The position numbers and the translations under genes are program-made. A model generated the notes under the pieces. That model had not been told where the DNA came from, searched no databases, and saw only the letters and a program-made list of their open reading frames with translations. A stretch of DNA of 64,000 nt from Xestospongia bergquistia (Eukaryota; Porifera; Demospongiae; Haplosclerida; Petrosiidae): NCBI GenBank assembly GCA_963965975.1, contig OZ014424.1, forward strand, positions 1,798,001-1,862,000, given 5' to 3'. Shown here piece after piece: positions 1 through 36,868 of the stretch. Every line of letters starts with the position of its first letter. Positions within the stretch are counted from its first letter, which is position 1.

Positions 1-1169
1 CTATAGAATGTATAGTTGATGGATTTTTGTTGATAGCTATGAGGGGTCTAATTCAAGCTATGTATTGGTTTCGTGGAGAAGAGGAGAAAATTAGATTTTA
101 CCATGTATGGATTAGAGGTCTTGAAATCATGAAGGAATATAATGTTCAGCTTTCATATCCATTACCAGTAGATGAATATGACCTACGTGAGGAGGTGAAA
201 ACAAAGGAAGAGCTGGATACAATATGGGGTAATACTTTAGAAATACTTTTTCAATATGCATTGATGTATGAAAGATGTCTAGGTAGAGTATGTATTAAGT
301 ACCTATTGGAAGTGGGACATAGAATGATTGATAATGAATATTTTAAAGAAGGTGAATCTGTGATTAAAAGAAGTGTACTAATAGAAACAAATATATGTGA
401 AGAGATATGTTCCAAGCCACCCAATTATTATCCTTTTCCTCGATTTTATGTTACCCAGTATGTCCTGGATGAACTTCATGTATTAAGTCGTAAGCTTCTC
501 GAAACAGAATATCCACTTAATTTTCAATTATACATTAAATTTGGACTAACAGCTCTGAAGACCAAATATCATCTACAGATACCAGTTGAACCAGATGACA
601 AACATCAAGTATTACTATTGTTTTCCATGTGGATGAAGAGCTGTGAATCTACTAATTCCTCTTATCCTTTTGAGTTAATCTCTTTAACAAAAGAATTTGT
701 TTTAAGCTTTCGTTATTATTCAGAAGGATCAGAATTACTTTTGTCTAACTGTGATTTCATTTACCGATATCCTTCACTACTACGTCTTCTCCTTGAAGTA
801 GGAGGTGATGCTGTAATAAATGATATTGGATGGGATGGAAGAACTTTACTTCAAGTTGCTCTTAAAAAGGCAGTTAATGTACACAAAATTGAAAGGATAG
901 AGGAAGTTATAAGAATATTATTGGAATATGGTGCTCATGTAGACACAACTAACAGTAAAAGTCTGACATTGTTCAGTGACGTAGTTAAATCAAAGCTTCC
1001 ATCATACAAAGCTTTATGTTCTCCACACCTTCCTTTATCTCTCTATTGCAGTGCAGCTAATGCTGTAGCAAAGTACTGTATACCTTATCAAGGACTACCT
1101 TCTCATGTTATAAACTTTATCAAGTTACATGATCCTCAATACTTTAAACAGTTTGACTATTTTCCTTAG
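1..1169 (+). CDS. FEM1-like ankyrin protein, alpha subfamily (5' end outside window)
   Basis: The frame is open from the left edge (first full codon at base 3) to TAG at 1167-1169, about 389 residues. This is the C-terminal 60 percent of the roughly 664-residue protein seen complete at 3602. It covers the helical middle region, which aligns with the part of FEM1 proteins containing the K-P-V-P / A-x-E-V / EELE stretch. Two ankyrin repeats follow (motif GWDGRTLLQVALKK and the LLEYGAHVDTTN helix-turn). The end carries an Elongin-BC box (SLYCSAANAV) and a CUL2 box (LPSHVINFI). FEM1 proteins are substrate receptors of CUL2-RING ubiquitin ligases that read C-terminal degrons. That role here is inferred from motif order. 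No break is visible. Its 3' partner at 1903 is a dead beta copy. Confidence 0.85.
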   Translation, partial: IECIVDGFLLIAMRGLIQAMYWFRGEEEKIRFYHVWIRGLEIMKEYNVQLSYPLPVDEYDLREEVKTKEELDTIWGNTLEILFQYALMYERCLGRVCIKYLLEVGHRMIDNEYFKEGESVIKRSVLIETNICEEICSKPPNYYPFPRFYVTQYVLDELHVLSRKLLETEYPLNFQLYIKFGLTALKTKYHLQIPVEPDDKHQVLLLFSMWMKSCESTNSSYPFELISLTKEFVLSFRYYSEGSELLLSNCDFIYRYPSLLRLLLEVGGDAVINDIGWDGRTLLQVALKKAVNVHKIERIEEVIRILLEYGAHVDTTNSKSLTLFSDVVKSKLPSYKALCSPHLPLSLYCSAANAVAKYCIPYQGLPSHVINFIKLHDPQYFKQFDYFP

Positions 1170-1489
1170 AACTGTTTGACATTCATTAAAGTCTGTGTGT
1201 ACATGTTGAGTTAAATTAGTTTATTTGCATGCTTTATTTTATAAATATTAATGATGTTATATAGAGAAATGTGGAGATATCTGTAGACCTTTTGGGAAAA
1301 CATTTTACCTTGTTTACATTTGTAGAGTAAGTGTCTTCTCACACAGAATTTATCCATATCCAAAAAAAGAATTAAATGAAATTAAGTTTAGTTACCAATT
1401 TAATAGACTTATTTCAGCAGCTGATAATCTACTAGAGGAAGAACACACCTTGAACACATGTTTGACCCACACACCTAATTAGGGATTAG

Positions 1490-1860
1490 ATGTAAGAGTG
1501 TATGACAATCACTTCAATCCCACAACCTCCAAACTTTCTTCTAGATTTAATTAACCACATTCTGTTTGGTTTTTGTGTCCTTCAAGTATTGTATGTCACT
1601 TGGTGACTGCATTAATTCACTGATCAAGTAAGTCTTCAGCACTGACATTTTATAAGACTTAAGAAAGTTCTGGAGCAATAGATATGTTTCCCACTTACCC
1701 TTAGTAAAGTTGTAAACATGAGGAACGGCTCCGGTTAACACATTTGATTTATAAGTTTAGCTTCAAAAAAGTCAATATAAGACTTTATTTCCTAATCTTA
1801 TCTTTCTCTCAAGGCATGCCATTTTCTTCTCATGCTGTATTTGTACCATTGAGGGTATAG
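1490..1860 (-). pseudogene. Tubulin-tyrosine-ligase-like relic
   Basis: On the minus strand there are disconnected open stretches that match the better preserved relic at 16230-17221. They include an AVPHVYNFTKGKWETYLLLQ-type segment and, at about 1540-1565, a remnant of the MWLIK ATP-grasp strand. Stops and frameshifts separate them. TTL-family enzymes ligate amino acids to tubulin tails; nothing here could make an active enzyme. Bases 1170-1490 hold only the 3' flank common to the FEM1-like genes. Confidence 0.6.
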
Positions 1861-1902
1861 GATAACGTTTGAACACAAAAATAGCATTTAATAGAAGCTT
1901 GT

Positions 1903-2665
1903 ATGTCAGAGAGTCTTCATGACCATGGAAAAATAATTAAATATTTAATTTCTAAAGGGGCCAAAGTCAATAAGGCATCAATTGATGGATCTACTCCATT
2001 ACATCATGCACACTCCCTCAAGACTATAAAGTACTTGCTGGAGTGTGGTGCTAATATTAATAAGACCTGTAATGAAGGCATCAGTCCACTAATACAACTT
2101 GTCGGAAATGGCCTCCTAAGCAAAGATTCAGATTTTAAGATATTTCTTTAATAAAAATATTAATGTTTATCAACGTACAACAAATGGCTATACAGTTTTG
2201 CACATTGCTAGTCGTATGTTACTTTTATATCTGAATTACTTTTGTCTAACACTGATTCATTTACCGATACCTTTCACTACTATGTCTTCTCCTTGAAGTA
2301 GGAGGTGATGTTGTAATAAATGATGTTGGATGGGATAGAAGAACTTTACTTCAAGTAGCTCTTAAAAAGGCAGTTAATGGATACAAAATTGAAAGAGTAG
2401 AGGAAGTTATAAGGATATTATTGGAATATGGTGCTCATGCAGACACAACTAACAGTAAAAGCCTTACTTTGTTCAGTGACATATATAGTTAAATCAAAGC
2501 TTCCATCATACAAAGCTTTATGTTCTCCACATCTTCCTTTATCTCTCTATTGTATTGCAGCTAATGCTGTAGTGAAGTACTGTATACCTTATCAAGGATT
2601 ACCTTATAGACTTTATCAAGTTACATGATCCTTGTTACTTTAAGCAGTTAGATTATTTTCCTTAG
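1903..2665 (+). pseudogene. FEM1-like beta-subfamily pseudogene
   Basis: The open part at 1903-2151 matches residues about 106-190 of the intact beta gene at 20822 (SESL-DHGKIIKYLISKGAK). After that the frame shifts. A large internal deletion joins the N-terminal ankyrin part directly to the C-terminal part at about 2225 (ELLLSN region). The C-terminal part carries further indels; one at 2480 shifts the VKSKLPSYKAL frame. The CUL2-box region has lost several bases, so LPSHVIDFI is no longer encoded. The first 105 codons are absent. The usual final TAG is still recognisable at the end. Not functional as a full protein. Confidence 0.85.
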
Positions 2666-2989
2666 AATTGTTTGACATTCATTAAAGTACATTTTAAGTT
2701 AAATTAGTTTATTTACATGCTTTATTTCACAATGATGTTATATAGAGAAATGTGGAGATATTTGTAGAAGACATGTTGCCTTGTTTTCATTTGTAGAGTG
2801 AGTGTCTTATTGTACAGAATTTATACATATCCAAAAAGTGAATTAATAAATAAAATTAAAATTTAGTTACAGCTAACACTGGGTTACTAATTTATAGACT
2901 TATTTCAGCAGCTCAAAATCTACTAGAGAAAAAAACACACCTCAAACACATGTTTAAGCCACATACTTAATTGGAGATTAGATATAAGA

Positions 2990-3601: not shown

Positions 3602-5596
3602 ATGGCAGACTATAGATTCAGTAAAGAAAAGTATCGACAATTGTGTTATTGGACCAGACATGGCAAACTATTTGAGATAAAGGCATTGATAAAAGAAGTA
3701 CAACCTAAAGAAAGAGTTCTGTTTGGACCAACCACGTTTTGCCCTCCACTAAAATACATGTTGAAAACACCTCTTGTCATTGCTTGCTATTGGGGCAAAT
3801 TTCATATTGTCAAGTACTTCCTTGAGACTTTCCCTAATATCATTGATGTAGATACATTAGCTGTTATATTTTTTAACAAGAAAACAGCAATTACTCCACT
3901 AATAGCAGCTTGTATGGCAGAATGTAGGGATGGCCGTGACCAAGCTTCTCAAAAAATAATTCAATATTTAATTTCAAAAGGGGCCAAAATTAACAAGTTA
4001 TCAACTGATGGGAGTACTCCATTACATCATGCACTTTCCCTTGAGACTATAAAGTATTTACTGGAATGTGGTGCTGATATTAATAAGACCTGTAATGAGG
4101 GCAATAGCCTATTAGTAAAAGTTGCTGGAAGTTTCGTTCTGAAAAAAGAAGCCCAAATTGAGATTTTAAGATATTTGCTTGATAACAATGCTAATGTTTA
4201 TCAATGTGCAAAAAATGGCTACACAGCGTTACACATGGCCAGTCATAGTTCATTTGCTTGTGAAGAAGTACTTAAGTTGTTATTAGACAGTGGTGCACCT
4301 CCTATGTTTACTGCTACATCTTGTGTTACAGATATTGACTACATACCATCTCCTGTGTATCTTGTTGCCGTGTCTACTGGGAATGAGGCTATAGTAAATG
4401 TTTTTCTTCAAAGAGAAGATTGTCCTATAGAATGTATAGTTGATGTATATTTGTTGATAGCTATGAGGTCTCTTTCTCTAGCAATGTATTTTTTTCAAGG
4501 AGAAGAGGAGAAAATTAGATTTTACCATGTATGGATTAAAGGTCTTGAAATCATGAAGGAATATAATGTTCAGCTTTCATATCCATTACCAGTAGATGAA
4601 TATGATCTACGTGAGGAGGTGAAAACAAAGGAAGAGCTGGATGCAATATGGGGTAATACTTTAGAAATACTTTTTCAATATGTATTGCTTTATGAAAGAT
4701 GTCTAGGTAGAGTATGTATTCATTACCTATTGGAAGTGGGAAATAGAATGATTGATAATGGATATCTTAACGAAGGTGAATCTGTGATTAAAAGAAGTGT
4801 ACTATTACAAACAAACATATGTGAAAAAATATGTTCCAAGCCACCCAATTACTATCCTTTTCCTCGATTTCATGTTACACAAAGTGTCCAGGATGAATTA
4901 CATGTATTAGTTCGTAAGTTTCTCCAAACAGGATATCCACCTAATTTCCAATTGTACATTAAATTTGGACTAACTGCTCTGAAGACCAAATATCACCTAC
5001 AGCTACAAGTTGAACGAGATGACAAACGTCAAGTATTACTATTGTTTTCCATGTGGATGAAGAGCTGTGATTTTTTTACCAATTCATCTTATCCTTTTGA
5101 GTTAATCTCTTTAGCCAAAGAATTTGTTTTAAGCTTTCGTTATTATCCAGAAGGATCTGAATTACTTTTGTCTAACTCTGATTTCATTTACCAATACCCT
5201 TCACTACTACGTCTTCTCCTTGAAGTAGGAGGTGATGCTGTAATAAATGATGTTGGATGGGATGGAAGAACTTTACTTCAAGTTGCTCTTAAAAAGGCAG
5301 TTAATGCATACAAAGTTGAAAGAATAGAGGAAGTTATAAAGATATTATTGGAATATGGTGCTCATGTAGACACAACTAACAGTAAAGGCCTTACATTGTT
5401 TAGTGACTTAGTTAAATCAAAGCTTCCATCGTACAAAGCTTTATGTTTTCCACACCTTCCTTTATCTCTCTATTGTATAGCAGCTAATGCTGTAGCAAAG
5501 TACTGTATACCTTATCAAGGACTGCCTTCTCATGTTATAGACTTTATCAAGTTACACGATCCTCAATACTTTAAGCAGTTAGATTATTTTCTTTAG
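3602..5596 (+). CDS. FEM1-like ankyrin protein, alpha subfamily, intact, putative CUL2 substrate receptor
   Basis: Single exon, 664 residues. The start MADYRFSKEKY is kept in most copies, and ACGTT precedes the ATG. Residues about 10-275 hold degenerate and clear ankyrin repeats (GSTPLHHALS, GADINKTCNEG, GYTALHMASHS). Residues about 300-510 are helical and align in order with the FEM1 middle: YHVWIKGLEIM, then SYPLPVDEYDLREEVKTKEEL. Residues about 535-600 hold two more ankyrin repeats. The BC box is SLYCIAANAV at 622-631 and the CUL2 box is LPSHVIDFI at 641-649. Vertebrate FEM1 proteins are about 620-670 residues with the same order, so length fits. Probable role: substrate receptor of a CUL2-Elongin BC ligase in nucleus or cytosol; the target is unknown. 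Particular to this copy: one extra residue in the CDFFTNSSYP stretch and a C-terminal L instead of P. Its downstream neighbour is a beta pseudogene at 6953. Confidence 0.9.
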   Translation: MADYRFSKEKYRQLCYWTRHGKLFEIKALIKEVQPKERVLFGPTTFCPPLKYMLKTPLVIACYWGKFHIVKYFLETFPNIIDVDTLAVIFFNKKTAITPLIAACMAECRDGRDQASQKIIQYLISKGAKINKLSTDGSTPLHHALSLETIKYLLECGADINKTCNEGNSLLVKVAGSFVLKKEAQIEILRYLLDNNANVYQCAKNGYTALHMASHSSFACEEVLKLLLDSGAPPMFTATSCVTDIDYIPSPVYLVAVSTGNEAIVNVFLQREDCPIECIVDVYLLIAMRSLSLAMYFFQGEEEKIRFYHVWIKGLEIMKEYNVQLSYPLPVDEYDLREEVKTKEELDAIWGNTLEILFQYVLLYERCLGRVCIHYLLEVGNRMIDNGYLNEGESVIKRSVLLQTNICEKICSKPPNYYPFPRFHVTQSVQDELHVLVRKFLQTGYPPNFQLYIKFGLTALKTKYHLQLQVERDDKRQVLLLFSMWMKSCDFFTNSSYPFELISLAKEFVLSFRYYPEGSELLLSNSDFIYQYPSLLRLLLEVGGDAVINDVGWDGRTLLQVALKKAVNAYKVERIEEVIKILLEYGAHVDTTNSKGLTLFSDLVKSKLPSYKALCFPHLPLSLYCIAANAVAKYCIPYQGLPSHVIDFIKLHDPQYFKQLDYFL

Positions 5597-6952: not shown

Positions 6953-8406
6953 GTGCTGACTACAGATTCAATGTCATGCAAGCGGACATGACGGCAAAAT
7001 AACTCAAGTTGATGCCTTATTGACTGATTAAAGAGGTATGTCCTGAAGAAAGAGCTCGGTTTGGACCAACCACGTTTTGCCCTCCACTAAAGTACATGTT
7101 GGAATCACCTTTTGTCATTGCTTGCTATTGCGGCAAATTTAAGATTGTCCAATACTTCCTTGAGACCTTCCCCAATATTATTGATGTAGATACATTAGCT
7201 ATAAGGTATATGAACATAAAAATAGCATTTACCCCACTAATACCAGCTTGTATGACAGACCACAGAAAATAATTAAATATTTGATTTCAAAAGGGGCCAA
7301 AGTCAATAAGGCATCAACTGATGGGAGTACTCCATTACATCATGCACACTCCCTCAAGACTATAAAGTATTTACTGGAGTGTGGTGCTGATATTGATAAG
7401 ACCTGTAATGAAGGCACAAGTCCAATAATACAAATTGTCGGAAATGGCCTCCTAACAAAAGAAGCAAAGATTCAGATTTTAAAATAATAAAAATGTTAAT
7501 GTTTATCAACGTACAACAAATGGCTATACTATTGCTAGTTGTATGTTATTTTCCTATAAAGAAGTAATTCAGGTACTATTAGATTATAGAGCACCTCCTA
7601 TGTTTACTGCTACTACTTGTGTTACAGATATTGATTACATACCACCCCCTGTGTATTATGCTGTTGGACGTGGTTATGAAGCTACAGTGGAGGTTTTGTT
7701 TCAAAGAGAAGATTGTCCTATAGAATGTAAATTCATATTTGCTAGAAGCTATGATGCTTCAAGCCATGTATTGTGATAATGAAATTGAAAAGAGAATTAG
7801 CTTTTACCATGTATGGATTAAAGGTCTGGAAATTATGAAAGAACATAATGTTCAGCTTTCATATTCATCAGCTGTAGATGAATATGACCTACGTGAGGAG
7901 GTGAAAATGAAGGAACAGCGGATGCAATATGGGACAATACTTTGGAAATATTTTATCAACATGCATTGATTTATGAGCGATGTCTAGGTAGAGAATGTAC
8001 CAATTGCCTATTGCACTACTACGTCTACTCCTTGAAGTAGGAGGTGATGCTGTAATAAATGATGTTGGATGGGATGGAAGAAGTTTACTTCAAGTTGCTC
8101 TTAAAAAGGCAGTTAATGCATACAAAGTTGAGAGGATAGAGGAAGTTATAAGGATATTATCAAAATATGGTGCTCATGTGGACACAACAAACAATAATTG
8201 CCTGACAATATTCAGTGACAGTTAAATCACAGCTTTCATCATACAAAGCTTTATGTTGTCCACACTTTCCTTTATCTCTCTATTGTATAGCAGCTAATGC
8301 TGTAGTAAAGTACTGTATACCTTATCAAGGACTACCTTCTCATGTTATAGACTTTATCAAGTTACATGATCCTCAATACTTTAAACAGTTAAATTATTTT
8401 CCTTAG
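6953..8406 (+). pseudogene. FEM1-like beta-subfamily pseudogene
   Basis: This matches the intact beta gene at 20822 from its first codon, including the ASGHDGKIT-type N-terminus. The start codon position reads GTG, and a deletion soon follows. Five separate open pieces (7248-7487, 7543-7776, 7739-7969, 7995-8225, 8215-8406) lie in changing frames, so at least four indels are needed. A large middle segment, roughly codons 370-530 of the intact protein, is missing between about 7985 and 8020. The CUL2 box LPSHVIDFI is still spelled at the end but cannot be reached in one frame. The upstream ACCGAACCT motif is retained. Confidence 0.88.
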
Positions 8407-8489
8407 AATTATTTGACATTCATTAAAGTCTGTATGTATGTGTTTAAGTTAAATTAGTTTGTGTTAATTAGGATAATGCAGAGTGTCTC

Positions 8490-10885: not shown

Positions 10886-12250
10886 AATTGTTTGACATTC
10901 ATTAAAGTATATGTTAAGTTAAATTAGTTTATTTGCATGCTTTATTTTACAAAATATTAATGATGTTATTAAGAGAAATGTGGAGACATCTGTAGACCTT
11001 TAGGAAGACATGTTGCCTTACTTTCATTTGCAGAGTGAGTGTCTTCTTGTACAGAGTTTATGTACAACTTCTAAAAATGGATTAATAATAAAATTAAATT
11101 TAGTTATAGCTGGGTTATAAAGCTAATTAGAGAAAAAACACACCATGAAGACATGTTTGAGTCACACAATAAATTGGGAATTAGATATGAGAGTGTATGA
11201 CATTAAAGGTGCACATTTCTCTCTTTTCTGGCCTAGTACTGTTTATAATAAAGTCATAGCATGTATGATGTACTATAGTAACATATTATTATATATTGCC
11301 CATTGAAGCGCAAATATCAATATGCCTTGTAATAACTTTCCAGGCTTTTATAAATACCTATATGCATGTCCTTTTTATTAGCATTTTAAAAATATGCATA
11401 CCTTGTACATGTCAGTTTTATATTAATTCAGAATTTGTACTGAAGTAATTACATCATCACTGTTATATATAGTGTGATCAAGTATCCATTTCAATATAAG
11501 ATGAATGAGAGGAGATGTATAACTATTCATTCATTATAAAGGGAAAGACTGTCTCATGACCTAGACACCATCCTCTACTGCCAGGAGCACAGAATATGAC
11601 TTGTAGCATTGAACTACATGAACTAAGGATGTTTTTTCTAAAATAAGCTTTAGTGACCACACTTGAAATAACATTTTAACAAATAAAACAAATTTGGAGT
11701 TCTTAGCTAGTTTACTTACATGATGCAAGTTGTATGTTTAAAATATCAATAAACTATAACCTATATATTTTTATTATTCAGAAGGATCTGAATTACTTTT
11801 GTCTAACTCTGATTTCATTTACCTATATCCTTCACTACTACGTCTTCTCCTTGAAGTAGGAGGTGATGCTGTAATAAATGATGTTGGATGGGATGGAAGA
11901 ACTTTATTGCAGTTGGATTATTATTATTAGAATTGTTTATTGTTCATTAAAGTCTGTGTGTACATGTTCAGTTAAATTAGTTTGTGCGCTTTATTTTATA
12001 AATATTAATAATATTATATTATATAGGGAAATGTGGAGACATCTTTAGACCATGGGAAGATATGTTGCCTTGTTTTCATTTGTCTTCTCGTACATACATA
12101 GTTTATGTATAACCTAAAAATGGTTTAATGAATAAATAATTAGATGAAAACATGAAGGTGCTCTCTAAGAGAAGAAAACCTACAAATACATAAATATAAG
12201 TGTACTTGTATTGTTAATTCTAGACAACAATTAATAAACTAACAATTAAG
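10886..12250. other. Intergenic region with a FEM1-like fragment
   Basis: Bases 10886-11210 are the usual 3' flank. About 11210-11560 is homologous to 32520-32720, except for roughly 130 extra bases here (about 11217-11345). Bases 11560-11770 show nothing recognisable. Bases 11775-11934 are an isolated + strand fragment of a FEM1-like gene (EGSELLLSN through DVGWDGRTL). It is then truncated straight into a copy of the 3' flank. No functional gene. Confidence 0.6.
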
Positions 12251-24224: not shown

Positions 24225-24316
24225 ACTGAGCATGCTCAGTTTAACATGCTGCTTTAATGGCGCCAGTTTTAGTAAACTGAGCATGCTCAGTTCAATAAGC
24301 TGCAAAAGTGGCGCCA
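24225..24316. repeat. Two 51-bp units, each with two perfect palindromes
   Basis: The 16-bp palindrome ACTGAGCATGCTCAGT occurs at 24225-24240 and again at 24276-24291. The 8-bp palindrome TGGCGCCA occurs at 24258-24265 and at 24309-24316. Both pairs are spaced exactly 51 bp, so the unit was duplicated whole. The region is GC-richer than its surroundings and is followed by a locally less AT-rich stretch (24330-24660). That looks like a dimeric-factor binding site and promoter for the non-coding locus downstream, but this is inference. Confidence 0.6.
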
Positions 24317-25605
24317 ATTTTTAGTCCTAAAAATACTATGTATTAGGTAGACCACCTCATTTCTGCAAGATGACTATACCTGTTGGACTGGTGCTACTGC
24401 AGGACTGATATGTTTTAAAGAAGAAGAGTACAACTGTGCTGCTGTCTACAGTCCGTTGCTTTGTGTCCAGTCAAGTTAATACCTTCCTTCAATTCTCATT
24501 CACCTCTAATGTAGAAAAACGTTACAGTCAACTCGAGGGCAACGACAAAAAATACGCTTTGTTCCAGCACGTACACAAGCAGAGAAAGTATTCAGGTCAG
24601 AGTAAACGTATGCCATGTGTATTTGTGGAAAGCCTAATTCAGATATTCTAGCTTTGTTAGGCCCAGACAGTTGCTGTTGTTTCACATACTTATAGCCTCT
24701 TCTAGCTACTTTCTTATAACTTGAGACCCTTTGATCTGTTGAGGCTGCCTAATTCTATAGTATATTATCAAAGTTTAGTTGTACCTCAGTTTAAGTCAGT
24801 ATTCAGTTGGCCTATGCAGTGTAGCACCGATCCGAGATAGTGTGTACAGGAAGCTGTTATATTGATTAGATGTATTCAGAGTAGAGAGGATTTTGCTGTC
24901 CTAAACACAACTAAAATGGCTAGTGCAAATATCTCCCATTGAATACTGAGTAACTTTTCATGAATGCTATAGCTGACAATAGGCATGGAGCTTTTAAGTT
25001 AGAAGGTCCTGGCAGCTAGCTGACAAGCTGAGTAGCTGTATTTCACATTGAGAACCAGATTTGAAGCCTGGAACATATAAGCACTTCAATAGAATATGAA
25101 GCTTACTCATACCAGCAGTTTCGATATAGCAGGCTAGCTTTCTTCTTGGTTGTAGCTTATAACCACAGTCTAGCTAATAAGAAATCATCTTGTTAACCAT
25201 AATTATTAGCAGAGCCTCCCTGATAAGTACATGAACTCTGTGGGTCCAATAGTCTAATTTTAAAACATGTTCACAACCCTATTGTAATGTTTTGGTGTAA
25301 TACATGTCGACTGAATAACTAGAGTACAAGTCCTGTATGTATTAATAATTGTAGTTTGTGCAAGCTTTTGAGACCAACTTTAAAAAGTAACCTTATAAAT
25401 TAACATATTAATAATTTCTATCATACATTTTTATGACAGACACTTTACATAGTTTTAGATGTCTTGTCACTTTGATCTTATATTGTACCATCATATCATA
25501 TAGAAAGTAAATCATTGCAATGTCTAATGATCCAAGTCTTGTTGTGTTCAGTGACCATTATACTATCTATTGTTGTGTTATATAAAGAAAGTGTTATAAC
25601 TCTTG
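24317..25605. other. Unassigned, possible 5' part of a non-coding transcript
   Basis: Bases 24330-24660 have fewer stops. An open frame at 24436-24651 contains VEKRYSQLEGNDKKYALFQH, with a possible donor (CAG/GTCAGAG) at about 24596. I do not recognise it as a protein. The rest, to 25605, has no coding signal. Confidence 0.3.
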
Positions 25606-26460
25606 TGATCAACATAGCATGTATGTGGCTTACCCTTTGTTAATCCATTTACATACACACACCTTTTGTTAATCCTATCACAGTATGACATCTACATATT
25701 CCAACCTCTTGTAAGTCCTATAACATGTACATTCAGACACACTTGTAACTTCCTTTCTTTTAATTTATGGTAGTCCTGTGACATGTCTATATACAAACCT
25801 TTTGACGTATTCATACACAAACGTTTTGTTACTTGTACCACAATATATCCTGTGACACAAACTAGCCCTGTGATATGCACCTATATAAACCTTTTGACAT
25901 ATTCATACACAAATGTTTTGTTACTCATACCACATTATGTCCTATGATACAACCTAGTTCTGTGACATGTACATTTACAAACCTTTTGACATATTCATGC
26001 ACAAATGTCTTGTTACTAGTTCTGTGGCACATTCTCTTACAATATGGTATAACCTTGTCTCCGACATGTACATGTTTGAATGCCTAATTACCCATACCAC
26101 TTAATTTCCTATTATACAACCAATACATACAAATGTTTTAATACCCAACCTCTTGTAATACAATACAACCTAGCCCTGTGACATATACATATATACAAAC
26201 CTCATACAACCACATAATCTTATGTAACCTAGTCCTGTGACATGTATGTACACAAAACATTTTGACATATTTATACATAAATATCTTGTTACTCATACCC
26301 ACATTATGTCCTATGATACAACCTAGTCCTGTGACACACACATATACAAATCTTCTGACATATTTATGCACAAATATCTTATTACTCAAACCACATTATG
26401 TCCTATGATACAACCTATTCCTGTGACATGTACATATAAACCTCTTATACCTAATAGCAC
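25606..26460. repeat. Imperfect tandem repeat, about 90-bp unit
   Basis: ACCTAGTCCTGTGACATGTA and close variants recur at about 25860, 25948, 26169, 26228, 26321 and 26412. Each is followed by ACAAACCTTTTGACATATTC and by a TTGTTACTCATACCACATTA stretch. Spacing is mostly 88-93 bp with some half units. The short ORFs inside are created by the repeat. Confidence 0.75.
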
Positions 26461-27119
26461 AACACATTCCTTGTGTAATATTAGTATAATATGGTAGAAA
26501 AATTTCTCTTCACCAACATTGTGAATTCATTAATATTTGTTATCTGTATTTTGTATAAATTTTGTTTTCTAACAAAACCTTTTGTCACCTTGTACACTAA
26601 AACAATAATACTTTTGTAAATCTCCTATTCACACTAAATCTACTAGTGTCTACAATTTTACTGGTAGAATCTAATTTGGTTCTTGTTACTTACTGTTCAA
26701 TGTATCTCCTGTGTTGATCTCTTGTTGCCATATACTGTGACTGTTATAACTCTTGAGTTATTATTATACAAGTTCTATCTTGTGTTAATATCTCCTGTGA
26801 CAGTTAACACTCTTATACGTGATCTGACATTTTGTTTAGTCCTCTATATGTTATCTTTAACATCCATCTCCTGCAGCTGTTCAACACTTTTGTGTTATGT
26901 TATATTATTGTCTGTACCCTACATTCATTAGTTTTTCAGTATTTTTGTAGACTAAAGATGTTCTATTGTTTTCTTGATATATCTTACCTATTGTAGTCCT
27001 ATAGTGTATGACCCACAGAGTTCATGTACTGTAATACTTCCTCTTGCTATTCTTGTTCCTGTTGTCTTGTTTTGTTTGTTGTATATTATTCCTACATATT
27101 CCAACATTGTCAAAGAGGT

Positions 27120-27560
27120 TTTCTACTGATAATGCTCGCATCAGTATTTTTACTGGCATCTATAATTTTACTCCAGTTCTTTTACTGACATCTCTATACT
27201 CCAGTTCTCTTACTGGCATCTAAAATTTTACTTCAGTACTTTTTACTGGCATCTAAAATTTTACTTCAGTATTTTTTACTGGCATCTAGAATTTTACTTC
27301 AGTACTTTTACTGACAACTAAAATTTTATTTCAGTATTTTTTAATAGCATCTAAAAAATTACTTCACTTTTTTTAATGGCATCTAAAAATTTACTACAGT
27401 ATTTTTTACTGGCATCTAAAATTCACTACAGCATTTTTTACTGGCATCTAGAATTTTACTTCAGTATTTTTTACTGGCATCTAAAATTTTGGCATTAAAA
27501 AATTTACTACAGTATTTTTTACTGGCATCTAAAAATTTACTTCAGTATGGCATCTAGAAT
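27120..27560. repeat. Minisatellite, about 32-bp unit
   Basis: TTTTTACTGGCATCTAAAAT followed by TTTACTTCAGTA recurs about a dozen times with small length changes. It is AT-rich and non-coding. Each unit ends in a T-rich stretch plus ACTTCAG, which resembles a splice acceptor. Bases 26460-27120 just upstream hold diffuse TGTTA/CTTTTG-rich sequence without a clear unit. Confidence 0.75.
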
Positions 27561-27589
27561 TTTTCGTGTCCTGTTCACTGGCATCAGGG

Positions 27590-28700
27590 CTTTAGGTAAG
27601 TTTTCATTCATGGTTTGTATTGGCCTGGAGGATTTGAAGGTTAGGTTTTATAGCAGATGTCCATGAAATCTAAACTCTTCTCTTTATCCCTAATAACTGA
27701 CATGGACTGTTGTACACTAGAATTATTAAGTAATTTTAACATACAACAGACTCTTGTCAATTTATAATAATAATTATTATTATTGCTCTGTTATAATAAC
27801 TATTTTTCATTTTATAGTAGGACTGTTTTCTACTGGAGATGATCATCAACTAATTGAGAGTTATAAACTCAACAATTTAAATAATACCTTCTTTTAGGAT
27901 AGAGTAGAATAGGTCTGTTTACTGACTGGTCTATTGGAGATGATTGTCCTACTTCTAGTAAGTTAATAGAAACACTTATTAAATAAATGTTTTAACTATT
28001 TATTCTCTTCTATTATAATAGTAATTTATTCTACATCAACATGTGATGATCTAGATCTAGTATAGTCCTATGATATACTATATATTTAAGTCATATCTAT
28101 TATTAAATTACTTATTTACTAACTATTTGTTCTGTAGTGTAATGATATAATGTTCTAATGGTTGTGAGTTATATAGTAACCATAATGTTAGAACAAAACA
28201 TTCTGTCACATTTAGTAGGTCTATCAATAAACTAGTAAGAAATGATCTGATAACATTTTTGTTAATATACCTACTGTAAGTTGAATTATTAAATAGTACA
28301 ATGTCTACTAAATGAACCTCAATGTTCTATAATAGAATAGAAAGGTTAATGTCACTGGTAATGATGATCTTATGTACATTAACTGATGACTAATGTAAGT
28401 TATCTGTTATAATAATATGGACATTTCTTTACTAAACATGTATTTTTTATAATTTTAGATGGACTTTGGTCTATTATATAAGTGTATGGTTCTCTGATAA
28501 CTTAGACTGTAAGTTTGATGTATCATTAACATAACAATCATGTACTAAACTATTTCCTTTAATTCTATAGTGATACTTTGATGACTAGACTGGAGATGAT
28601 GCAGTGATGTTCTCTAATAATTACTCTATGTAAGATTGATCTTATATACCTTTTGTTAATTCTATTTAACTTTTCATTCTGTAGTGATGTTCACGTTGAG
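27590..28700 (+). ncRNA. Candidate spliced non-coding segment, first copy of 1-kb direct duplication
   Basis: Short blocks are bounded by good splice sites on the + strand. Acceptors (TTATAG, TTTTAG, AATAG, CTATAG, CTGTAG) end near 27819, 27898, 28458, 28570 and 28684. Donors (GTAAGT or GTAAGA) begin at 27596, 27958, 28395, 28509 and 28630. The blocks are about 50-60 nt, share a core like CTGGAGATGATxxTC, and have stops in all three frames, so they cannot be protein exons. The segment from about 27660 to 28640 reappears at 29950-30920. Interpretation as a non-coding RNA gene is inference. Confidence 0.35.
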
Positions 28701-28725
28701 TGTACTTCAACTGCTGGAGATGGTG

Positions 28726-28900
28726 GAGATTTTTAATGAGTTGATGAATGAGATAATGTTGGAGATGATGATGGAGATGGTGATTGAGATGGTGATTGAG
28801 ATGGTGATGGAGATGGTGATGGAGATGGTGATGGAGATGGTGATTGAGATGGTGGTGATGATGATGATCGAGATGGTGATGGAGATAATGGTTGTATACT
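28726..28900 (+). repeat. GAGATGGTGATG microsatellite
   Basis: A run of 6- and 12-bp units (GAGATGGTGATT, GAGATGGTGATGG) about 170 bp long. It opens a 72-residue frame made almost only of M, E, V and I. The frame is a product of the repeat and shows no gene character. Confidence 0.85.
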
Positions 28901-29041
28901 AATAGTTACACTATATATAGTACAATTACAAACAGTTTTGGTCTCCTTTAATTGGGTTATCTACTACTAACACTGTGTGGACATCAATAATTGTTTATGG
29001 GCCTGCAAAAAACATTCAACATCAACATTGCTGGTTGTGGC

Positions 29042-29161
29042 TCTGTATATTGGTTCTTGAGGTTGACAGGCTTTATGTCTTTCTGTATCTTGGTTCTTGA
29101 GGTTGACAGGCTTTGTGTCTTTCTGTATCTTGGTTCTTGAGGTTGACAGTCTTTGTGTGTT
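29042..29161. repeat. 40-bp tandem repeat, three copies
   Basis: TCTGTATCTTGGTTCTTGAG plus GTTGACAGGCTTTGTGTCTT is repeated three times head to tail with one or two changes per copy. No coding content. Confidence 0.85.
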
Positions 29162-29469
29162 GAATATGGTCAGGGATCAGTTTGTGGGTTGTCAATAGGG
29201 ATATCATAATGTGATTATAGGTAGTTGATGAGTCTGGGGTATTAATAGGTGGATTTGGACATGGAACAACAGTGTATGATATTTTGCCATTACTTTTTAA
29301 TATTGTATCCTCCTCCTTGTCTTGTGGTACCTCACATCTTGTTCATCTTTATCTTTTGTGTATCTATATATGAACTATCCTTGTATAACCTTCTAGGTGT
29401 TATTGATGTATAACAGTGACCCTTTCTCTTGATATTAAACCTGATGTCAGACCCTTCAATATTTATTTT

Positions 29470-29840
29470 AATCCTTTGTGTGTGTCTGTTACTGTGTCAT
29501 AATGTTCTATATCTTGTGTCTGTCATATTAACTCCCTTTGTGTCATATAATCCTGAATAATTTAACCCCTTCTGTTTCGTAATTGTTAACCATTGAGTGT
29601 GTTGTGTATTAACCCCTTATGTGTGTTGTATAATCTTGAATTATTTAGCCCTCCATTTTATAATTGTTACCATTGTGTTGCATATTTATCCCTTTGTGTG
29701 CTGTATAATCCTGAATAATTTAACCCCTACTGTTTCATAATTGTTAACCATTGAGTGTGTTGCATATTTACCCCTTATGTGTGCTGTATAAGCCTGAATT
29801 ATTTAACTCCCTTTGTAATTTTTTGTAAATTAATGCTGAC
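29470..29840. repeat. Imperfect repeat, about 120-bp unit
   Basis: Units contain GTATAATCCTGAATAATTTA, then ACCCCTxCTGTTTC(A/G)TAATTGTTAACC, then ATTGAGTGTGTTG. They recur about three times with deletions. Nothing else is seen in this stretch or in 29162-29470. Confidence 0.65.
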
Positions 29841-29919
29841 ATCTCTAATACTGACATCTCATTGTCACTGTATTACTGGTATCTGGATAGGTTTTGAAGG
29901 TTAGGTTTGTGCTGGCATG

Positions 29920-30940
29920 GAAGATTTGATGGTTACATTTTATTAGCTGGTGTTTGTGAAGTGTAGGCTCTTCTCTTTATTCCTAATAACTGACATGGAC
30001 TGTTGTACACTAGAATTATTAAGTAATTTTAATATACAAGAGACTCTTGTCAATTTATAACAATAACTATTATTATTTCTATGTTATAATAACTATTTTT
30101 CATTTTATAGTAGGACTGTTTTCTACTGGAGATGATCATCAATTAATTGAGAGTTATAAACTCAACAATTTAAATAATAACTTTTTTTAGGATGGAGTAG
30201 AATAGGTCTGTTTACTGATCTATTAGTGATGGGTATTCTACTTCTAGTAAGTTAATAGAAACACTTATTAAATAATTGTTTTTACTATTTATTTTCTTCT
30301 ATTATAATAGTAATTTATTCTACATCAACATGTGATGATCTAGATCTAGTATAGTCCTATGATATACTATATGTGTAAGTCATATCTATTATTAAATTAC
30401 TAATTTACTAACTACTTGTTCTGTAGTATAATGATATAATGTTCTAATGGTTGTGAGTTGTATAGTAACTATAATGTTAGAACAAAACATTCTGTTACAT
30501 TTAGTAGGTCTATCAATAAACTAGTAAGAAATGATCTGATAACAATTGTAGATACCTCCTGTAAGTAGAATTAATATAATTGTCTACTGAATGAACTTTG
30601 TTCTATAATAATAGGATGTACAGGTTAATGATCATTGTAGTGATAATCTGATGTACATTAACTGATAACTACTGTAAGTTATAATAATGTGGACAGTTCT
30701 ATATTAAACATGTGTTTTAATTTTTTAGCTGAATTTTAATCTACTGTGTAGGAATACATGATGTCAAGGTTCTTTAATAACTTTTTAGACTGTAAGTTTG
30801 ATCTCTCATTAATTTTGACAATATTGTACTAAACTCCTTGTATTCTATAGTGATACTTTGATGACTAGACTGGAGATGATGTAGTGAAGTTCTCTAATAA
30901 CTACTCTATGTAAGATTGATTTTTTATATATCATTAATTC
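29920..30940 (+). repeat. Second copy of the 1-kb direct duplication with mini-exon-like blocks
   Basis: Homologous to 27640-28640 at a constant offset near 2,280-2,293 bp. For example, TAATAACTGACATGGACTGT is at 27691 and 29984, and TATAGTGATACTTTGATGAC is at 28567 and 30847. Splice-like borders are conserved: GTAAGTTAATAGA, GTAAGTTTGAT and TATAG/TGATACTTTG. Conservation of these borders between diverged copies is mild evidence that they matter. Confidence 0.7.
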
Positions 30941-31085
30941 TGACTGCGCATTTTTATTCTCTAGTTGTTTTTATTCTTTAGCTGTTCTACTTGAGTGCTG
31001 GGAATGATGACAGCTGTATCATAATACTTATACTATGTTATAAGTATGATACTACTGACCCTTTTGTCACTCTAATAGATTTATG

Positions 31086-31662
31086 ATCTGATGTATATTA
31101 ACTGATGACTACTGTAAGTTGACTTGTTAAATAGTACAATTGTCTACTGAATGAACTATTTAATAGGATGGACAGGTTTAATGATCACTGGTAGCGATGA
31201 TCTAATCTACATTAACTGATGACTACTGTAAGTTGACTTGTTAAATAGTACAATTGTCTACTGAATGAACTATTTAATAGGATGGACAGGTTTAATGATC
31301 ACTGGTAGCGATGATCTAATCTACATTAACTGATGACTACTGTAAGTTGACTTGTTAAATAGTACAATTGTCTACTGAATGAACTATTTAATAGGATGGA
31401 CAGGTTTAATGATCACTGGTAGCGATGATCTAATCTACATTAACTGATGACTACTGTAAGTTGACTTGTTAAATAGTACAATTGTCTACTGAATGAACTA
31501 TTTAATAGGATGGACAGGTTTAATGATCACTGGTAGCGATGATCTAATCTACATTAACTGATGACTACTGTAAGTTGACTTGTTAAATAGTACAATTGTC
31601 TACTGAATGAACTATTTAATAGGATGGACAGGTTTAATGATCACTGGTAGTGATTATCTGAT
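31086..31662 (+). repeat. 114-bp tandem array, each unit a mini-exon plus mini-intron
   Basis: Five copies at an exact 114-bp period. Donor-like GTAAGTTGACTTG begins at 31114, 31228, 31342, 31456 and 31570. Acceptor-like TATTTAATAG/GATGG ends 53 nt later each time. The 61-nt block between (GATGGACAGG ... GATGACTACT) has a stop in every frame. Units are almost identical, so the expansion is recent. A single diverged unit is present in the older duplicated segments near 28340-28440 and 30590-30690. The last unit runs directly into a FEM1-like fragment at 31663. Confidence 0.85.
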
Positions 31663-32245
31663 GTACCAGATGACAAACGTCAAGTATTACTATTGTTTTC
31701 CATGTGGATAAAGAGCTGTGAATCTACCAATTCATCTTATCCTTTTTAAGTTAATGTCTTTAGCAAAAGTGTTTGTTTTAACCTATCTTTATTATCCAGA
31801 AGGATCTGAATTACTTTTGTCTAACTGTGATTTCATTTACCTATATCCTTCACTACTATGTCTTCTCCTTGAAGTAGGAGGTGATGCTGTAATAAATGAT
31901 GTTGGATGGGATGGAAGAACTTTGCTTTAAGTTGCTCTTAAAAAGGGTGTTAATGCATACAAAATTGCAAGAATAGACGAAATTATGAAGATATTATTGG
32001 AATATGGTGCTCATGTAGACACAACTAACAGTAAAGGCCTGACATTGTTCAGTGACATAGTTAAATCAAAGCTTCCATCATACAAAGCTTTATGTTCTCC
32101 ACATCTTCCTTTATCTCTCTATTGTATAGCAGCTAATGATGTAGTGAAGTACTGTATACCTTATCAAGGACTACCTTCTCATGTTATAGACTTTATCAAG
32201 TTACATGATTATCGTTACTTTGAGCAGTTAAATTATTTTCCTTAG
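31663..32245 (+). pseudogene. FEM1-like alpha C-terminal fragment
   Basis: Starts abruptly at the equivalent of codon 470 (PDDKRQVLLLFSMW) where the 114-bp array ends. It contains a frameshift after SSYPF at about 31745 and a TAA in LLQVALKK at about 31927. It then reads to the normal end, with BC box SLYCIAANDV and LPSHVIDFI. The N-terminal 70 percent is absent. The 3' flank to about 32720 matches that after the gene at 8855. Confidence 0.88.
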
Positions 32246-32769
32246 AATTGTTTGACATTTATTAAAGTCTGCAAGTGTTAAGTTAAATTAGTTTGTGTGC
32301 TTTATTTTATAAAATATTAATGATCTTATATTATATAGAGAAATGTAGACGATATTTGTCTTGTTTTCATTTGTAGAGTGAGTGTCTTCTTGTACAGAGT
32401 TTATGTACAACTTCTAATAATAAAATTAAATTTAGTTATAGCTGGGTTACAAAATCTAATTAGAAGAAAAAAACATCATGAAGACATGTATGAGTCACAC
32501 ACTAAAATGGGAATTAGATATGAGAGTGTATGACATTAGAGGTGCACATATAAATACCTACCAGTATATGTCCATTTCTTAGCATTTTATAAATATGTAT
32601 ACACTTGTATATGTCAGTTTATTATTAATTCAGAATTGTACTGAAGTAATTACATCATCACTGTTATATATAGTGTGATCAAGTATCCATTTTAATATAA
32701 GGTGATGAGAGGAGAGGTATAACTATTTAGGTAGAATGGATATTCATTCATTATCATCACTTGTAAACA

Positions 32770-32929: not shown

Positions 32930-33100
32930 CTAAAAGTTCTTTATTACAAGACTTCTAGTAATGTTAGTAAGGATAAAAGATACCTTTGAGGCAGTGCAGT
33001 AGACACTTGTTAAGTGTTGTTTATTCAAGCCCTGAGTGGGAGAAAATCAGTTAATACCAATTGATCAAGAGTTTAGTGATTAAAACATGATAGCATCATA

Positions 33101-33335
33101 ACGTTCGGCTTTCATATCCATTACCAGTAGATGAATATGACCTACATGAGAAGGCGAAAATGAAGGAAGAGCTGAATTGAATATGGGGCAATACTTTAGA
33201 AATACTTTTTCAGTATGCTTTGCTTTATGAGCGATGTCTAGGTCAAATATGTATTCAGTACATATTGGAAGTGGGAGATAGAATGATTGTAGAATAGTTG
33301 TCTTCAGACTCTTCTTCTGACTTCATTACCTATAT
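33101..33335 (+). pseudogene. FEM1-like middle fragment next to TTL-like N-terminal remnant
   Basis: Bases 33101-33291 encode, on the + strand, the SYPLPVDEYDL...ERCLGQICIQYILEVGDRMI stretch of the middle region, with one in-frame stop (EELN-stop). This fragment then joins, at about 33295, the minus-strand acidic N-terminal remnant of the TTL-like relics (E-E-D-S-x-D-x). A chimeric junction of two debris pieces. Confidence 0.75.
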
Positions 33336-33534: not shown

Positions 33535-33601
33535 TTAGTAATTATTCGTTGTAGAGAAGGGCTCTCTCATAACCGAACCTCTGAGTAGTGATCTAAACGT
33601 T
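33535..33601 (+). promoter_or_regulatory. Upstream block of FEM1-like gene, TATA-like element deleted
   Basis: TTCGTTGTAGAGAAGGGCTC and CATAACCGAACCTC are kept. The CCGTATAAAAGTA stretch of other copies is shortened to CTGAGTAG. If TATAAAA drives the paralogues, this copy should behave differently. Confidence 0.5.
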
Positions 33602-35590
33602 ATGGAAGACTATAGATTCAGTAAAGAAAAGTATCAACAATTGTGTTACTGGACCAAACATGGCAAACTAACTGAGATAAAGGCATTGATAAAAGAAGTA
33701 CAACGTAAAGAAAGAGCTCGGTTTGGACCAACCACGTTTTGCCCTCCATTAAAGTACATGTTGGAATCACCTCTTGTCATTGCTTGTTATTGGAGCAAAT
33801 TTAAGATTGTCCAGTACTTCCTTGAGACTTTCCCTAATATCATTGATGTAGATACATTAGCTGATATAGTTTTGGACAAGAAAATAGCAATTACTCCACT
33901 AATAGCAGCTTGTATGGCAGAACGTAGAGATGACTGTGACCAAGAATCTCTAAAAATAATTAAATATTTAATTTCAAAAGGGGCCAAAATTAACAAGTCA
34001 TCAACTGATGGGAGTACTCCATTATGTCATGCACTTTCCCTTAAGACTATAAAGTATTTACTGGAGTGTGGTGCTGATATTAACAAGGCCTGTAATGAGG
34101 GTATTAGCATATTAATAGAAGTTGCTAGAAGTTTCCTTCTAAAAATAGATACTCAAATTCAAATTTTAAGATATTTGCTTGATAACAATGCTAATGTTTA
34201 TCAATGTACAAAAAATGGCTACACAGCTTTACACATGGCCTGTCGTAGTTCATTAGCTTATGAAGTAGTTGAGCTTTTATTAGACTATGGAACACCTCCT
34301 ATGTTCACTGCTACTTCTTGTGTTACAGATATTAATTACATACCATCTCCTGCATACCTCGCTGCTGTGTCTCCTGGGGGAGAGGCTATAGCGCCTGTTT
34401 TTCTTCAAAGAGAAGATTGTCCTATAGAATGTATAGTCGATGTGTTTTTGTTGACAGCTATGAGGCGTCTAAGTGAAGCTATGTATTGCTTTCATGGAGA
34501 AGAGGAGAAAATTAGATTTTACCATATATGGATTAAAGGTCTTGAAATCATGAATGAACATAATGTTCAGCTTTCATATCCATTACCAGTAGATGAATAT
34601 GACCTACGTGAGGAGGTGAAAACAAAGAAAGAGCTGGATACAATATGGGGTAATACTTTAGAAATTCTTTTTCAATATGCATTGCTTTATGAAAGATGTC
34701 TAGGTAGAGTATGTATTAAGTACCTATTGGAAGTGGGAGATAGAATGATTGATAATGGATACCCTAAAGAAGGTGAATCTGTGATTAGAAGAGGTGTACT
34801 ATTAGAAACAAATATATGTGAAGAGATATGTTCCAAGCCACCCAATTCCTATCCTTTTCCTCGATTTGATGTTACACAGTATGCCCTGGATGAACTTCAT
34901 GTATTAATTCGTAAGCTTCTCGAAACAGGATATCCACCTAATTTCCAATTGTACATTCAATTTGGACTAACAGCTCTAAAGACCAAATATCATCTACAGT
35001 TACCAGATGAACCAGATGACAAACGTCAAGTATTACTATTGTTTTCCATGTGGATGAAGAGCTGTGAATCTACCAATTCACCTTATCCCTTTGAGTTAAT
35101 CTCTTTAGCCAAAGAATTTGTTTTAAGCTTTCGTTATTATCCAGAAGGATCAGAATTACTTTTGTCTAACTGTGATTTCATTTACCGATACCCTTCACTA
35201 TTGTGTCTTCTCCTTGAAGTAGGAGGTTATGCTGTAATAAATGATGTTGGATGGGATGGAAGAACTTTACTTCAAGTAGCTCTTAAAAAGGCAGTTAATG
35301 CAGACAAAGTTGAAAGAATAGAAGAAGTTATAAGGATGTTATTGGAATATGGTGCTCATGTAGACACAACTGACAGTAAAGGCCTGACATTGTTCAGTGA
35401 CATAGTTAAATCAAAACTTCCATCATACAAAGCTTTATGTTCTCCACACTTTCCTTTATCTCTCTATTGTATAGCAGCTAATGCTGTAGCAAAGTACTGT
35501 ATACCTTATCAAGGACTACCTTCTCATGTTATGGACTTTATCAAGTTACATGATCCTCATTACTTTAAGCAGTTAAATTATTTTTCTTAG
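33602..35590 (+). CDS. FEM1-like ankyrin protein, alpha subfamily, intact
   Basis: Single exon, 662 residues, start MEDYRFSKEKY. It is separated from the main array by the 9-kb repeat region and lies before a beta fragment (36188), so it reproduces the alpha-beta arrangement of 17524-22831. Copy-specific stretches are CYWSKFKIVQYF, DTLADIVLDKKIA, MACRSSLAYEVVELL (one residue shorter) and CLLLEVGGYAVI. SPGGEAIAPVF and CFHGEEEKIRF tie it to the copy at 13128. The BC box SLYCIAANAV is intact and the CUL2 box reads LPSHVMDFI, still consensus. The 3' flank is standard. Confidence 0.9.
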   Translation: MEDYRFSKEKYQQLCYWTKHGKLTEIKALIKEVQRKERARFGPTTFCPPLKYMLESPLVIACYWSKFKIVQYFLETFPNIIDVDTLADIVLDKKIAITPLIAACMAERRDDCDQESLKIIKYLISKGAKINKSSTDGSTPLCHALSLKTIKYLLECGADINKACNEGISILIEVARSFLLKIDTQIQILRYLLDNNANVYQCTKNGYTALHMACRSSLAYEVVELLLDYGTPPMFTATSCVTDINYIPSPAYLAAVSPGGEAIAPVFLQREDCPIECIVDVFLLTAMRRLSEAMYCFHGEEEKIRFYHIWIKGLEIMNEHNVQLSYPLPVDEYDLREEVKTKKELDTIWGNTLEILFQYALLYERCLGRVCIKYLLEVGDRMIDNGYPKEGESVIRRGVLLETNICEEICSKPPNSYPFPRFDVTQYALDELHVLIRKLLETGYPPNFQLYIQFGLTALKTKYHLQLPDEPDDKRQVLLLFSMWMKSCESTNSPYPFELISLAKEFVLSFRYYPEGSELLLSNCDFIYRYPSLLCLLLEVGGYAVINDVGWDGRTLLQVALKKAVNADKVERIEEVIRMLLEYGAHVDTTDSKGLTLFSDIVKSKLPSYKALCSPHFPLSLYCIAANAVAKYCIPYQGLPSHVMDFIKLHDPHYFKQLNYFS

Positions 35591-35934
35591 AATTGTTTGA
35601 CATTCATTAAAGTATATGTTAAGTTAAATTAGTTTATTTGCATGCTTTATTTTATTAATATTAATGATGTTATAGAGAGATATCTGTAGACCTATAGGAA
35701 GACATGTTGCCTTGTTTTCATTTGTAGAGTGATGAGTGACTGTCTTCTCGTACAGAGTTTATCCATATCCTAAAATTGGATTATTAAATAAAATTAAATT
35801 TAGTTACAGCTAGCACTGGGTTACCAATTTTATAGACTTATTTCAGCAGTTTTAAATCTACTAGAGGAAATCACACCTTGAACACATGTTTGAGTCACAC
35901 ACTTAATTAGGGATTAGATGTAAGAGTGTATGAC

Positions 35935-36015
35935 AATCACTTCAATCCCACAACCTCCAAACTTTCTTCTATATAGATTTAATTACCCACATGTTGTTTA
36001 GTTTTGTGTCCTTAA
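35935..36015 (-). pseudogene. TTL-like relic fragment
   Basis: The minus strand holds the degraded ATP-grasp strand region (equivalent to MWLIKSRRKFGG at 19935-19860), with a small insertion. It lies in the same place after an alpha gene as the other relics. Confidence 0.45.
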
Positions 36016-36187
36016 ATTCATGTAAAGGGATTATATTTATCTAAAAGTGGACAATCTGGAGGATTTTCCTTCATATTAATTGTCAAGAATGAAAATGTTA
36101 TCCTACAAGTATGTCCAGAAACACTTAGGGTGTCTGTTGCAATATCATTACTAAATCAAGCATGTCCTATAATAAAGAAAATATCAG

Positions 36188-36868
36188 AAATAATAAGACC
36201 TGCAATGAAGGCATCAGTCCACTAATACAAATCGTGAGAAATGGCCTCCTAAAAAAAGAAGCAAAGATTCGGATTTTAAGATATTTACTTGATAACAATC
36301 CAAATGTTTATCAATGTACAACAAATGGCTACACAGCTTTACACATTGCTAGTCATACTTCATTTGCTTATAAAGAAGTAGTTCAGTTTCTATTAGACTA
36401 TGGAGTACCTCCTATGTTTACTACTACTTCTCATGTTACAGATATTGATTACATACCATCTCCTGTGTATCTTGCTGCTTATAGTGCTGATGAGGCTATA
36501 GTTAATTTTTTTTTCAAAGAGAAGATTGTCCTATAGAATGTAAAGTCACTGCACATTTGTTAAAAGCTATAAGGTGATAAGTAAAGATAGAGGAAGTTAT
36601 AAGGATATTATTGGAATATGGTGCTCAAGTAGACACGACTAATAATAAAGGCCTTACATTGTTCAGTGACATAGTTAAATCAAAGCTTTCATTGTACAAA
36701 GCTTTATGTTCTCCACACCTTCCTTTGTCCCTCTATTGTACTCCAGCTAATGATGTAGTGAAGTACTGTATACCTTATCGAGGACTACCTTCTCATGTTA
36801 TAGACTTTATCAAGTTACATGATCCTCAATACTTTAAGCAGTTTGATTATTTCCTTAGAATTGTTTGA
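36188..36868 (+). pseudogene. FEM1-like beta-subfamily pseudogene with two large deletions
   Basis: Homology to the intact beta gene begins abruptly at codon about 160 (NKTCNEGISPLIQIVRNG). A deletion of more than 1 kb fuses upstream intergenic DNA (up to about 36185) to the coding part. A 124-residue frame runs to 36536, where a frameshift follows (FFFKEK). A second deletion removes the whole middle region, so the text resumes at EEVIRILLEYGAQVD (about 36587). It runs to the normal C-terminus with LPSHVIDFI and a final frameshift (FLRIV). The 3' flank matches that of the gene at 20822 up to about 36985. Confidence 0.88.

Follow-up and report, generated by a model that had tools for sequence, protein, structure and literature searches.

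A 64,000-nucleotide stretch of the genome of the sponge Xestospongia bergquistia (contig OZ014424.1, referred to as C14; positions 1798001-1862000, below called the window) carries part of a tandem array of genes that resemble FEM1, a conserved ligase receptor with a C-degron pocket known in atomic detail. Based on sequence comparison and predicted structure, we consider it probable (about 0.6) that the array encodes FEM1-derived substrate receptors of the cullin 2-RING ubiquitin ligase (CRL2), with a specificity that has been remade and is diversifying. Homology to FEM1 and the FEM1 fold, conserved docking residues, loss of most of the pocket, expansion of the family and a signal of selection carry this reading. 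With the docking end kept, the pocket seemingly lost stepwise and the receptor multiplied under selection, the array would be a natural experiment in target change.

The FEM1-like array

Stop-to-stop frames and tblastn identified seven open FEM1-like frames in the window, all on the forward strand. Six contain the whole coding sequence, ATG and stop codon included, and one is cut by the left edge, in agreement with the seven open copies claimed by an earlier reading made from the sequence alone (the sequence-only reading). The genes and the docking elements of the copy used for the structure model are as follows.

3..1169, forward strand: 3' part of F05, whose ATG lies 825 bases left of the window; CUL2 box LPSHVINFI
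3602..5596, forward strand: F06, intact FEM1-like gene, 664 amino acids (aa); copy used for the structure model
5468..5503, forward strand: BC box of F06; residue 623 is equivalent to FEM1B L597
5525..5557, forward strand: CUL2 (cullin) box of F06, PSHVIDFIKLH; residue 642 is equivalent to FEM1B P617
8855..10885, forward strand: F07, intact FEM1-like gene, 676 aa
13128..15122, forward strand: F08, intact FEM1-like gene, 664 aa
17524..19515, forward strand: F09, intact FEM1-like gene, 663 aa
20822..22831, forward strand: F10, intact FEM1-like gene, 669 aa; CUL2 box LPSHVVDFI
33602..35590, forward strand: F11, intact FEM1-like gene, 662 aa; CUL2 box LPSHVMDFI

The tandem array described from the window is real, but it extends beyond the left edge: a search of 304 kb (C14:1658001-1962000) showed that the whole array spans about 60 kb (C14:1775198-1834856) and holds 11 full-length copies, all on the forward strand. 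Ten of them are intact, with uninterrupted ATG-to-stop frames of 660-676 aa, which bears out the claim of single-exon coding sequences and of an expansion. The frame of the remaining copy, F02, which lies outside the window, is interrupted by a TGA following codon 419. All four CUL2-box variants quoted by the sequence-only reading are present, and the pattern hydrophobic-P-x-x-hydrophobic-x-x-x-hydrophobic fits 10/10 intact copies. Among the database proteins P0001-P0020, F04, F06, F09 and the truncated F02 have identical entries, and F03, F05, F08, F10 and F11 have full-length entries at 97-99.8% identity, possibly alleles; F01 and F07 have no entry above 89% identity in that set. F07 and F10 carry repeated RIEEVI-type units inserted in frame in the C-terminal ankyrin part.

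Homology to FEM1 and predicted fold

The array proteins are only 20-25% identical to FEM1B. A profile of 24 family members nevertheless matched FEM1C (E=8.4e-53) and FEM1B (E=3e-46), each in a single stretch that begins at profile position 52-55 and ends at 644 (profile length 656); by sequence, the initial ~50 positions stayed unaligned. Two AlphaFold models align with human FEM1B or FEM1C over almost the entire length, and the match takes in the VHL box, which consists of the BC box and the cullin box. The model aligned over residues 9-653 to FEM1C 2-617, and the predicted layout contains N-terminal ankyrins, a helical middle, C-terminal ankyrins and the C-terminal VHL box. The FEM1 layout claimed from the sequence is thus recovered by both profile and predicted fold, the middle region among the parts aligned in the structure comparison. 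Similarity through chance resemblance of ankyrin repeats was ruled out, since the last 388 residues alone, which comprise the helical middle, the C-terminal ankyrins and the tail, had FEM1C as top match (a modest E=1.5e-06, the best stretch covering the C-terminal ankyrins and tail) and the first 34 Foldseek rows were all FEM1. In proteins P0022-P0025, which are also FEM1-like, the helical (tetratricopeptide repeat, TPR) region is shortened and the VHL box is retained.

The array proteins resemble FEM1B and FEM1C (and FEM1A), all CRL2 receptors, in profile and fold over nearly the whole chain and in the order of blocks: ankyrin, helical (TPR-like), ankyrin, BC box, cullin box. Unlike FEM1B, they occur in many tandem copies and lack the FNIP1 zinc residues and the greater part of the pocket for Arg/Pro C-degrons.

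The docking end is conserved

In FEM1B, passages of PMC10943247 place the BC box at 597-608 and the cullin box at 617-627; contact residues were taken from passages of PMC11053023 and PMC10943247. Residue counts for docking and pocket positions refer to 24 family-member rows aligned to FEM1B. The positions of L597 and P617 are each unchanged in 24/24. At F623, Phe occurs in 23/24 and Tyr in 1/24; at V624, Ile in 21/24 and Val in 3/24; at L620, Val in 23/24 and Ile in 1/24. Retention of the VHL box, as read from the sequence alone, is therefore upheld at these residues. The docking residues are kept even in relatives just 33-48% identical to F06, and gene conversion alone was set aside as the source of this retention because the residues are retained across deep relatives.

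Loss of most of the C-degron pocket

The pocket that reads Arg/Pro C-degrons shows a different picture from the docking end. In FEM1B numbering, W93 is found in 0/24 rows, with Ile, Thr or Met in its place, F130 in 1/24 and R126 in 7/24; no row has Tyr at Y84, and the array family has a shorter loop following R126. The zinc-binding residues of FEM1B as the reductive stress receptor (for FNIP1) are H185 and C186; neither His nor Cys occurs at these columns in the 24 rows. In the second pocket, D356 is found in 14/24 and W367 in 2/24, in an alignment that is uncertain and differs from that of the tree. At the F501/H502 insert only one of 24 rows has residues, and the alignment there is likewise uncertain. 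Pocket residues define the known degron reading of FEM1B rather than descent, so we call the array FEM1-derived and not a FEM1 C-degron reader.

FEM1B and 31 relatives chosen from those found were put in a tree. Of the 13 outgroup proteins, 11 retain W93, S122, R126 and F130 together (P0122, P0128, P0145, P0148, P0149, P0150, P0152, P0155, P0157, P0158 and P0160); P0109 has W, S, R and Y and P0161 has N, S, M and F at these positions, and P0157 is without a VHL box. The array clade together with the basal P0026 split off at 100% bootstrap. Among the outgroups, the sponge protein P0128 of Dysidea avara ("Protein fem-1 homolog A-like") and its relatives among P0145-P0161 are FEM1-like, as the array proteins are, and mostly 634-733 aa long (one is 474 aa). 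Unlike the array proteins, the 11 outgroup proteins just named, P0128 among them, have all four residues, and they fall outside the array clade.

Two divergent genes of the same genome lie in the interval.

C10:6962382-6966556, opposite strands: L043 and L042, divergent FEM1-like genes side by side, each a single frame

L042 (671 aa) keeps W93, S122, R126 and F130, and L043 (659 aa) has the intermediate set I, A, R and Y. In a second tree the pocket-keeping outgroups branch next to FEM1B, followed in turn by L042, L043, P0026 and the array clade (supports 93-100). The C-degron pocket thus seems, from these sequences, to have been lost in steps in this lineage.

Signs of selection on the array copies

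Pairwise comparison of the 11 copies gave a ratio of nonsynonymous to synonymous divergence (dN/dS) of 0.62 overall. The VHL box (residues 601-652) had the lowest value of six regions, 0.35, the other five lying at 0.57-0.64. Windows of 30 codons with dN/dS >1 are 91-120, 196-225, 211-240, 421-450 and 541-570. Codon models were then fitted to the 10 intact copies. For codons 1-330, M2a was preferred over M1a with twice the log-likelihood difference (2dlnL) at 18.9 (p 7.7e-5), and with seven segments given their own trees 2dlnL was 33.6 (p 5e-8), with sites 40, 178, 257, 266, 290, 297 and 531. In 35 completed simulations under M1a (36 seeds) the maximum was 10.57, as compared with 30.75 for the data under the same optimiser. 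The mean P(purifying) was 0.44-0.60 over the six regions. The fits point to positive selection on a small number of positions, none of which is in the VHL box.

The family across the genome and the intronless state

The genome searched comprises 146 Mb in 21 contigs. A search with F06 gave 76 matches (best 65 of 719 candidates scored) and one with P0128 gave 135 (best 66 of 1214 candidates scored), so that counts from the F06 search are lower bounds. A second array at C14:3704-3746 kb holds at least five full-length frames and one pseudogene. Four of its five rows list one TAA, and the open frames of 668-671 aa suggest that this TAA lies before the ATG. One more gene of the close clade lies at C14:1283286-1285352, and a close-clade copy on C8 has a TGA.

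At least 18 divergent FEM1-like matches fall in frames of 665-829 aa (C1 4, C3 5, C4 3, C9 2, C10 2, C13 1, C14 1), a count that leaves out the match at C3:2174523, which lies in a 2110-aa frame. None has a stop in its main piece; the second piece of C3:2233392 has one TAA. The F06 tail is also matched in 13/18 of these frames and is not reached in C4:7436490, C4:7665952, C9:891640, C9:3036670 and C14:4755040. L042 and L043 were read, and the other 16 are candidates. The genome total is about 34 candidate uninterrupted FEM1-like frames, made up of 10 + 5 + 1 of the close clade and 18 divergent ones.

Single open frames are found in L042 and L043 as well as in the array copies, so the lack of introns seems to predate the array. 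P0150, with 670 aa on a contig of 2099 bases, must be nearly intron-free too. Human FEM1A is a single-exon gene. The sequence-only reading had proposed a retrocopy that then expanded. A recent retrocopy as source of the array is not borne out and was set aside because L042, L043 and the 16 further divergent frames of this genome are uninterrupted too. Among the papers listed by our literature searches, none has a title or abstract on sponge or lineage-specific FEM1 expansion, and none pairs FEM1A with the intronless state.

Proposed function and competing explanations

In the reading we favour, Elongin C and CUL2 would be engaged through the VHL box, and targets would be bound by the body that the ankyrins and the helical region form. 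Since the Arg/Pro pocket is mostly lost as compared with FEM1B and L042, the array proteins should recognise something else, and binding may have diversified as genes duplicated in tandem and positive selection then acted on a small number of positions in the body. We infer that the proteins are expressed, bind Elongin and CUL2, bring about ubiquitylation and have a changed specificity.

A number of observations pull the other way. Foldseek whole-chain TM-scores to FEM1 are moderate, 0.45-0.55 when normalised by query length (four best rows and 9j79_P), and a Pfam search of the proteins found ankyrins only. The L600 position of the BC box is Leu in only 4/24 rows, so binding to Elongin C is not assured. 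Many members of the array clade still have S122 of the pocket (16/24 rows), and Y84 is kept in none of the relatives compared in the tree. Elsewhere than in the VHL box, dN/dS can fall just as low in single windows of 30 codons (0.30 at 121-150; 0.26 at 316-345). The preference for M2a is weak for codons 331-664 (2dlnL 8.2, p 0.016), where it adds site 428, and dropping columns near gaps (564/655 kept) halves the signal (2dlnL 15.9, p 3.6e-4). The codon-model code was written by us, uses naive empirical Bayes only and gave overflow warnings in some simulated fits. Synonymous divergence varies along the gene between array copies, so gene conversion between tandem copies is likely, and this can mimic site-specific selection.

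How far do these points favour other explanations? The copies may still read C-termini through an altered pocket that favours another last residue. This overlaps with the favoured reading in that specificity has changed; we regard it as possible but unlikely, with W93 absent in 24/24, F130 absent in 23/24 and the loop after R126 shortened. Ordinary birth-and-death under relaxed constraint, in which copies arise and decay, docking is kept by youth or homogenisation and no new specificity is selected, would fit the decayed copies and fragments between intact genes, the premature stop of F02, the high overall dN/dS and the plausible gene conversion. We nevertheless judge it unlikely, as 10/11 full-length copies are intact, the docking residues persist in relatives out of reach of conversion within the array, and M2a beats M1a at a value that 0/35 simulations reached.

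Two further alternatives concern the docking end. Ankyrin scaffolds that resemble FEM1 and no longer join CUL2 would account for the changed L600 position (20/24), but seem improbable given that the L597, P617, F623 and V624 equivalents are kept through deep divergence and that dN/dS is lowest in the VHL box. Decoys that occupy Elongin C or CUL2 without delivering a target, and so tune other CRL2 ligases, would agree with a docking end better conserved than the target end. That proposal is very improbable in our view: the reading frame is kept across the whole body, part of which is under purifying selection, and the selected sites are found away from the VHL box, a pattern that a decoy would not need.

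"Varied or foreign targets", as the sequence-only reading put it, may be hypothesised for the array proteins. In its fuller form, the idea is that sponges of this lineage possess a set of FEM1-derived receptors for degradation, no longer tied to C-degrons and diversified in tandem arrays, which recognises variable or foreign intracellular proteins; this is speculative and we think it doubtful. If true, an early animal lineage would have a recognition system based on degradation, with a parallel in the F-box arrays of nematodes. F-box receptors work through SKP1-CUL1. The F-box families of Caenorhabditis, according to passages of PMC8665587, show species-specific tandem expansion, with purifying selection on the adaptor end and signs of positive selection on the substrate end. 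By analogy, the FEM1-like array would share with these Skp1-Cullin-F-box (SCF) receptors an expanded ligase receptor with a conserved adaptor end and a diversifying substrate end, and it is a possible sponge counterpart of them. The nematode families differ in using another ligase, in their unrelated receptor domains and in being much larger.

Broken copies and a dispersed repeat

Besides the open copies, tblastn found six broken FEM1-like pieces in the window, listed here with the repeat region that one of them adjoins.

1888..2659, forward strand: decayed FEM1-like copy with a broken frame; codons ~100-214 and 528-663 remain, without the middle
7024..8400, forward strand: decayed FEM1-like copy with frameshifts and an internal deletion; codons ~29-377 and 529-663 remain
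11766..11915, forward strand: FEM1-like fragment, codons 512-561
24000..32381, forward strand: match to a dispersed repeat; 24000 marks only the start of the query
31662..32381, forward strand: broken piece in which the dispersed repeat adjoins a FEM1 3' end starting at codon ~471
33010..33288, forward strand: FEM1-like fragment, codons 293-384
36192..36856, forward strand: decayed FEM1-like copy, codons ~161-289 then 574-664

Broken copies had been claimed, and the six pieces agree with this, except that 31662-32381 is the end of a dispersed repeat and not a decayed tandem gene. Positions 24000-32381 match C2, C3, C4, C5 and C9 at 72-93% (best 12 of 276 candidates). At nine fragment loci that we chose from the F06 genome search (L033-L041, on C1, C3, C4, C5, C6 and C9), coding similarity to F06 starts at window 5011-5017, codon ~471, in 9/9, and left of this junction the loci have a common non-FEM1 sequence. 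The same junction occurs in the window at ~31662, and a decayed tandem gene was ruled out there on the grounds that the nine dispersed loci share it. Stops occur in the FEM1 part of 8/9 loci; the piece at C1:18167057 is free of them. The pattern is most simply explained if a FEM1 3' end was joined once to the dispersed repeat, which then spread. A 114-bp tandem repeat of 5.1 copies (31083-31666) lies just left of the junction.

Other features of the window and contig

A tubulin-tyrosine ligase (TTL)-like fragment (16456-16911, reverse strand; Pfam TTL 1.7e-16) lies between FEM1-like copies, and the frame 12256-12795 resembles it by eye over a short stretch, with no family above the cut-off. 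Tandem single-frame TRPA1-like channel genes occupy 44841-48320, 50789-54268, 56464-59688 and 63347-64000, all on the reverse strand. The first copy has 1159 aa and matches TRPA1 in the PDB at E=8.3e-113; the third frame stops early at 56464, and its C-terminal part is in the next frame (56209-56463). Tandem repeats of 103 bp adjoin these genes at 48769-50449, 54718-55869 and 60135-60411 (16, 11 and 3 copies). Two single-frame fucosyltransferase-like (GT10) genes on the forward strand, 42767-44056 and 61468-62568, are near-identical by eye, Pfam having been run on the first. C14 also holds many of the PF12796 ankyrin matches listed for the genome (best 150 of 6319 candidates), in long open frames.

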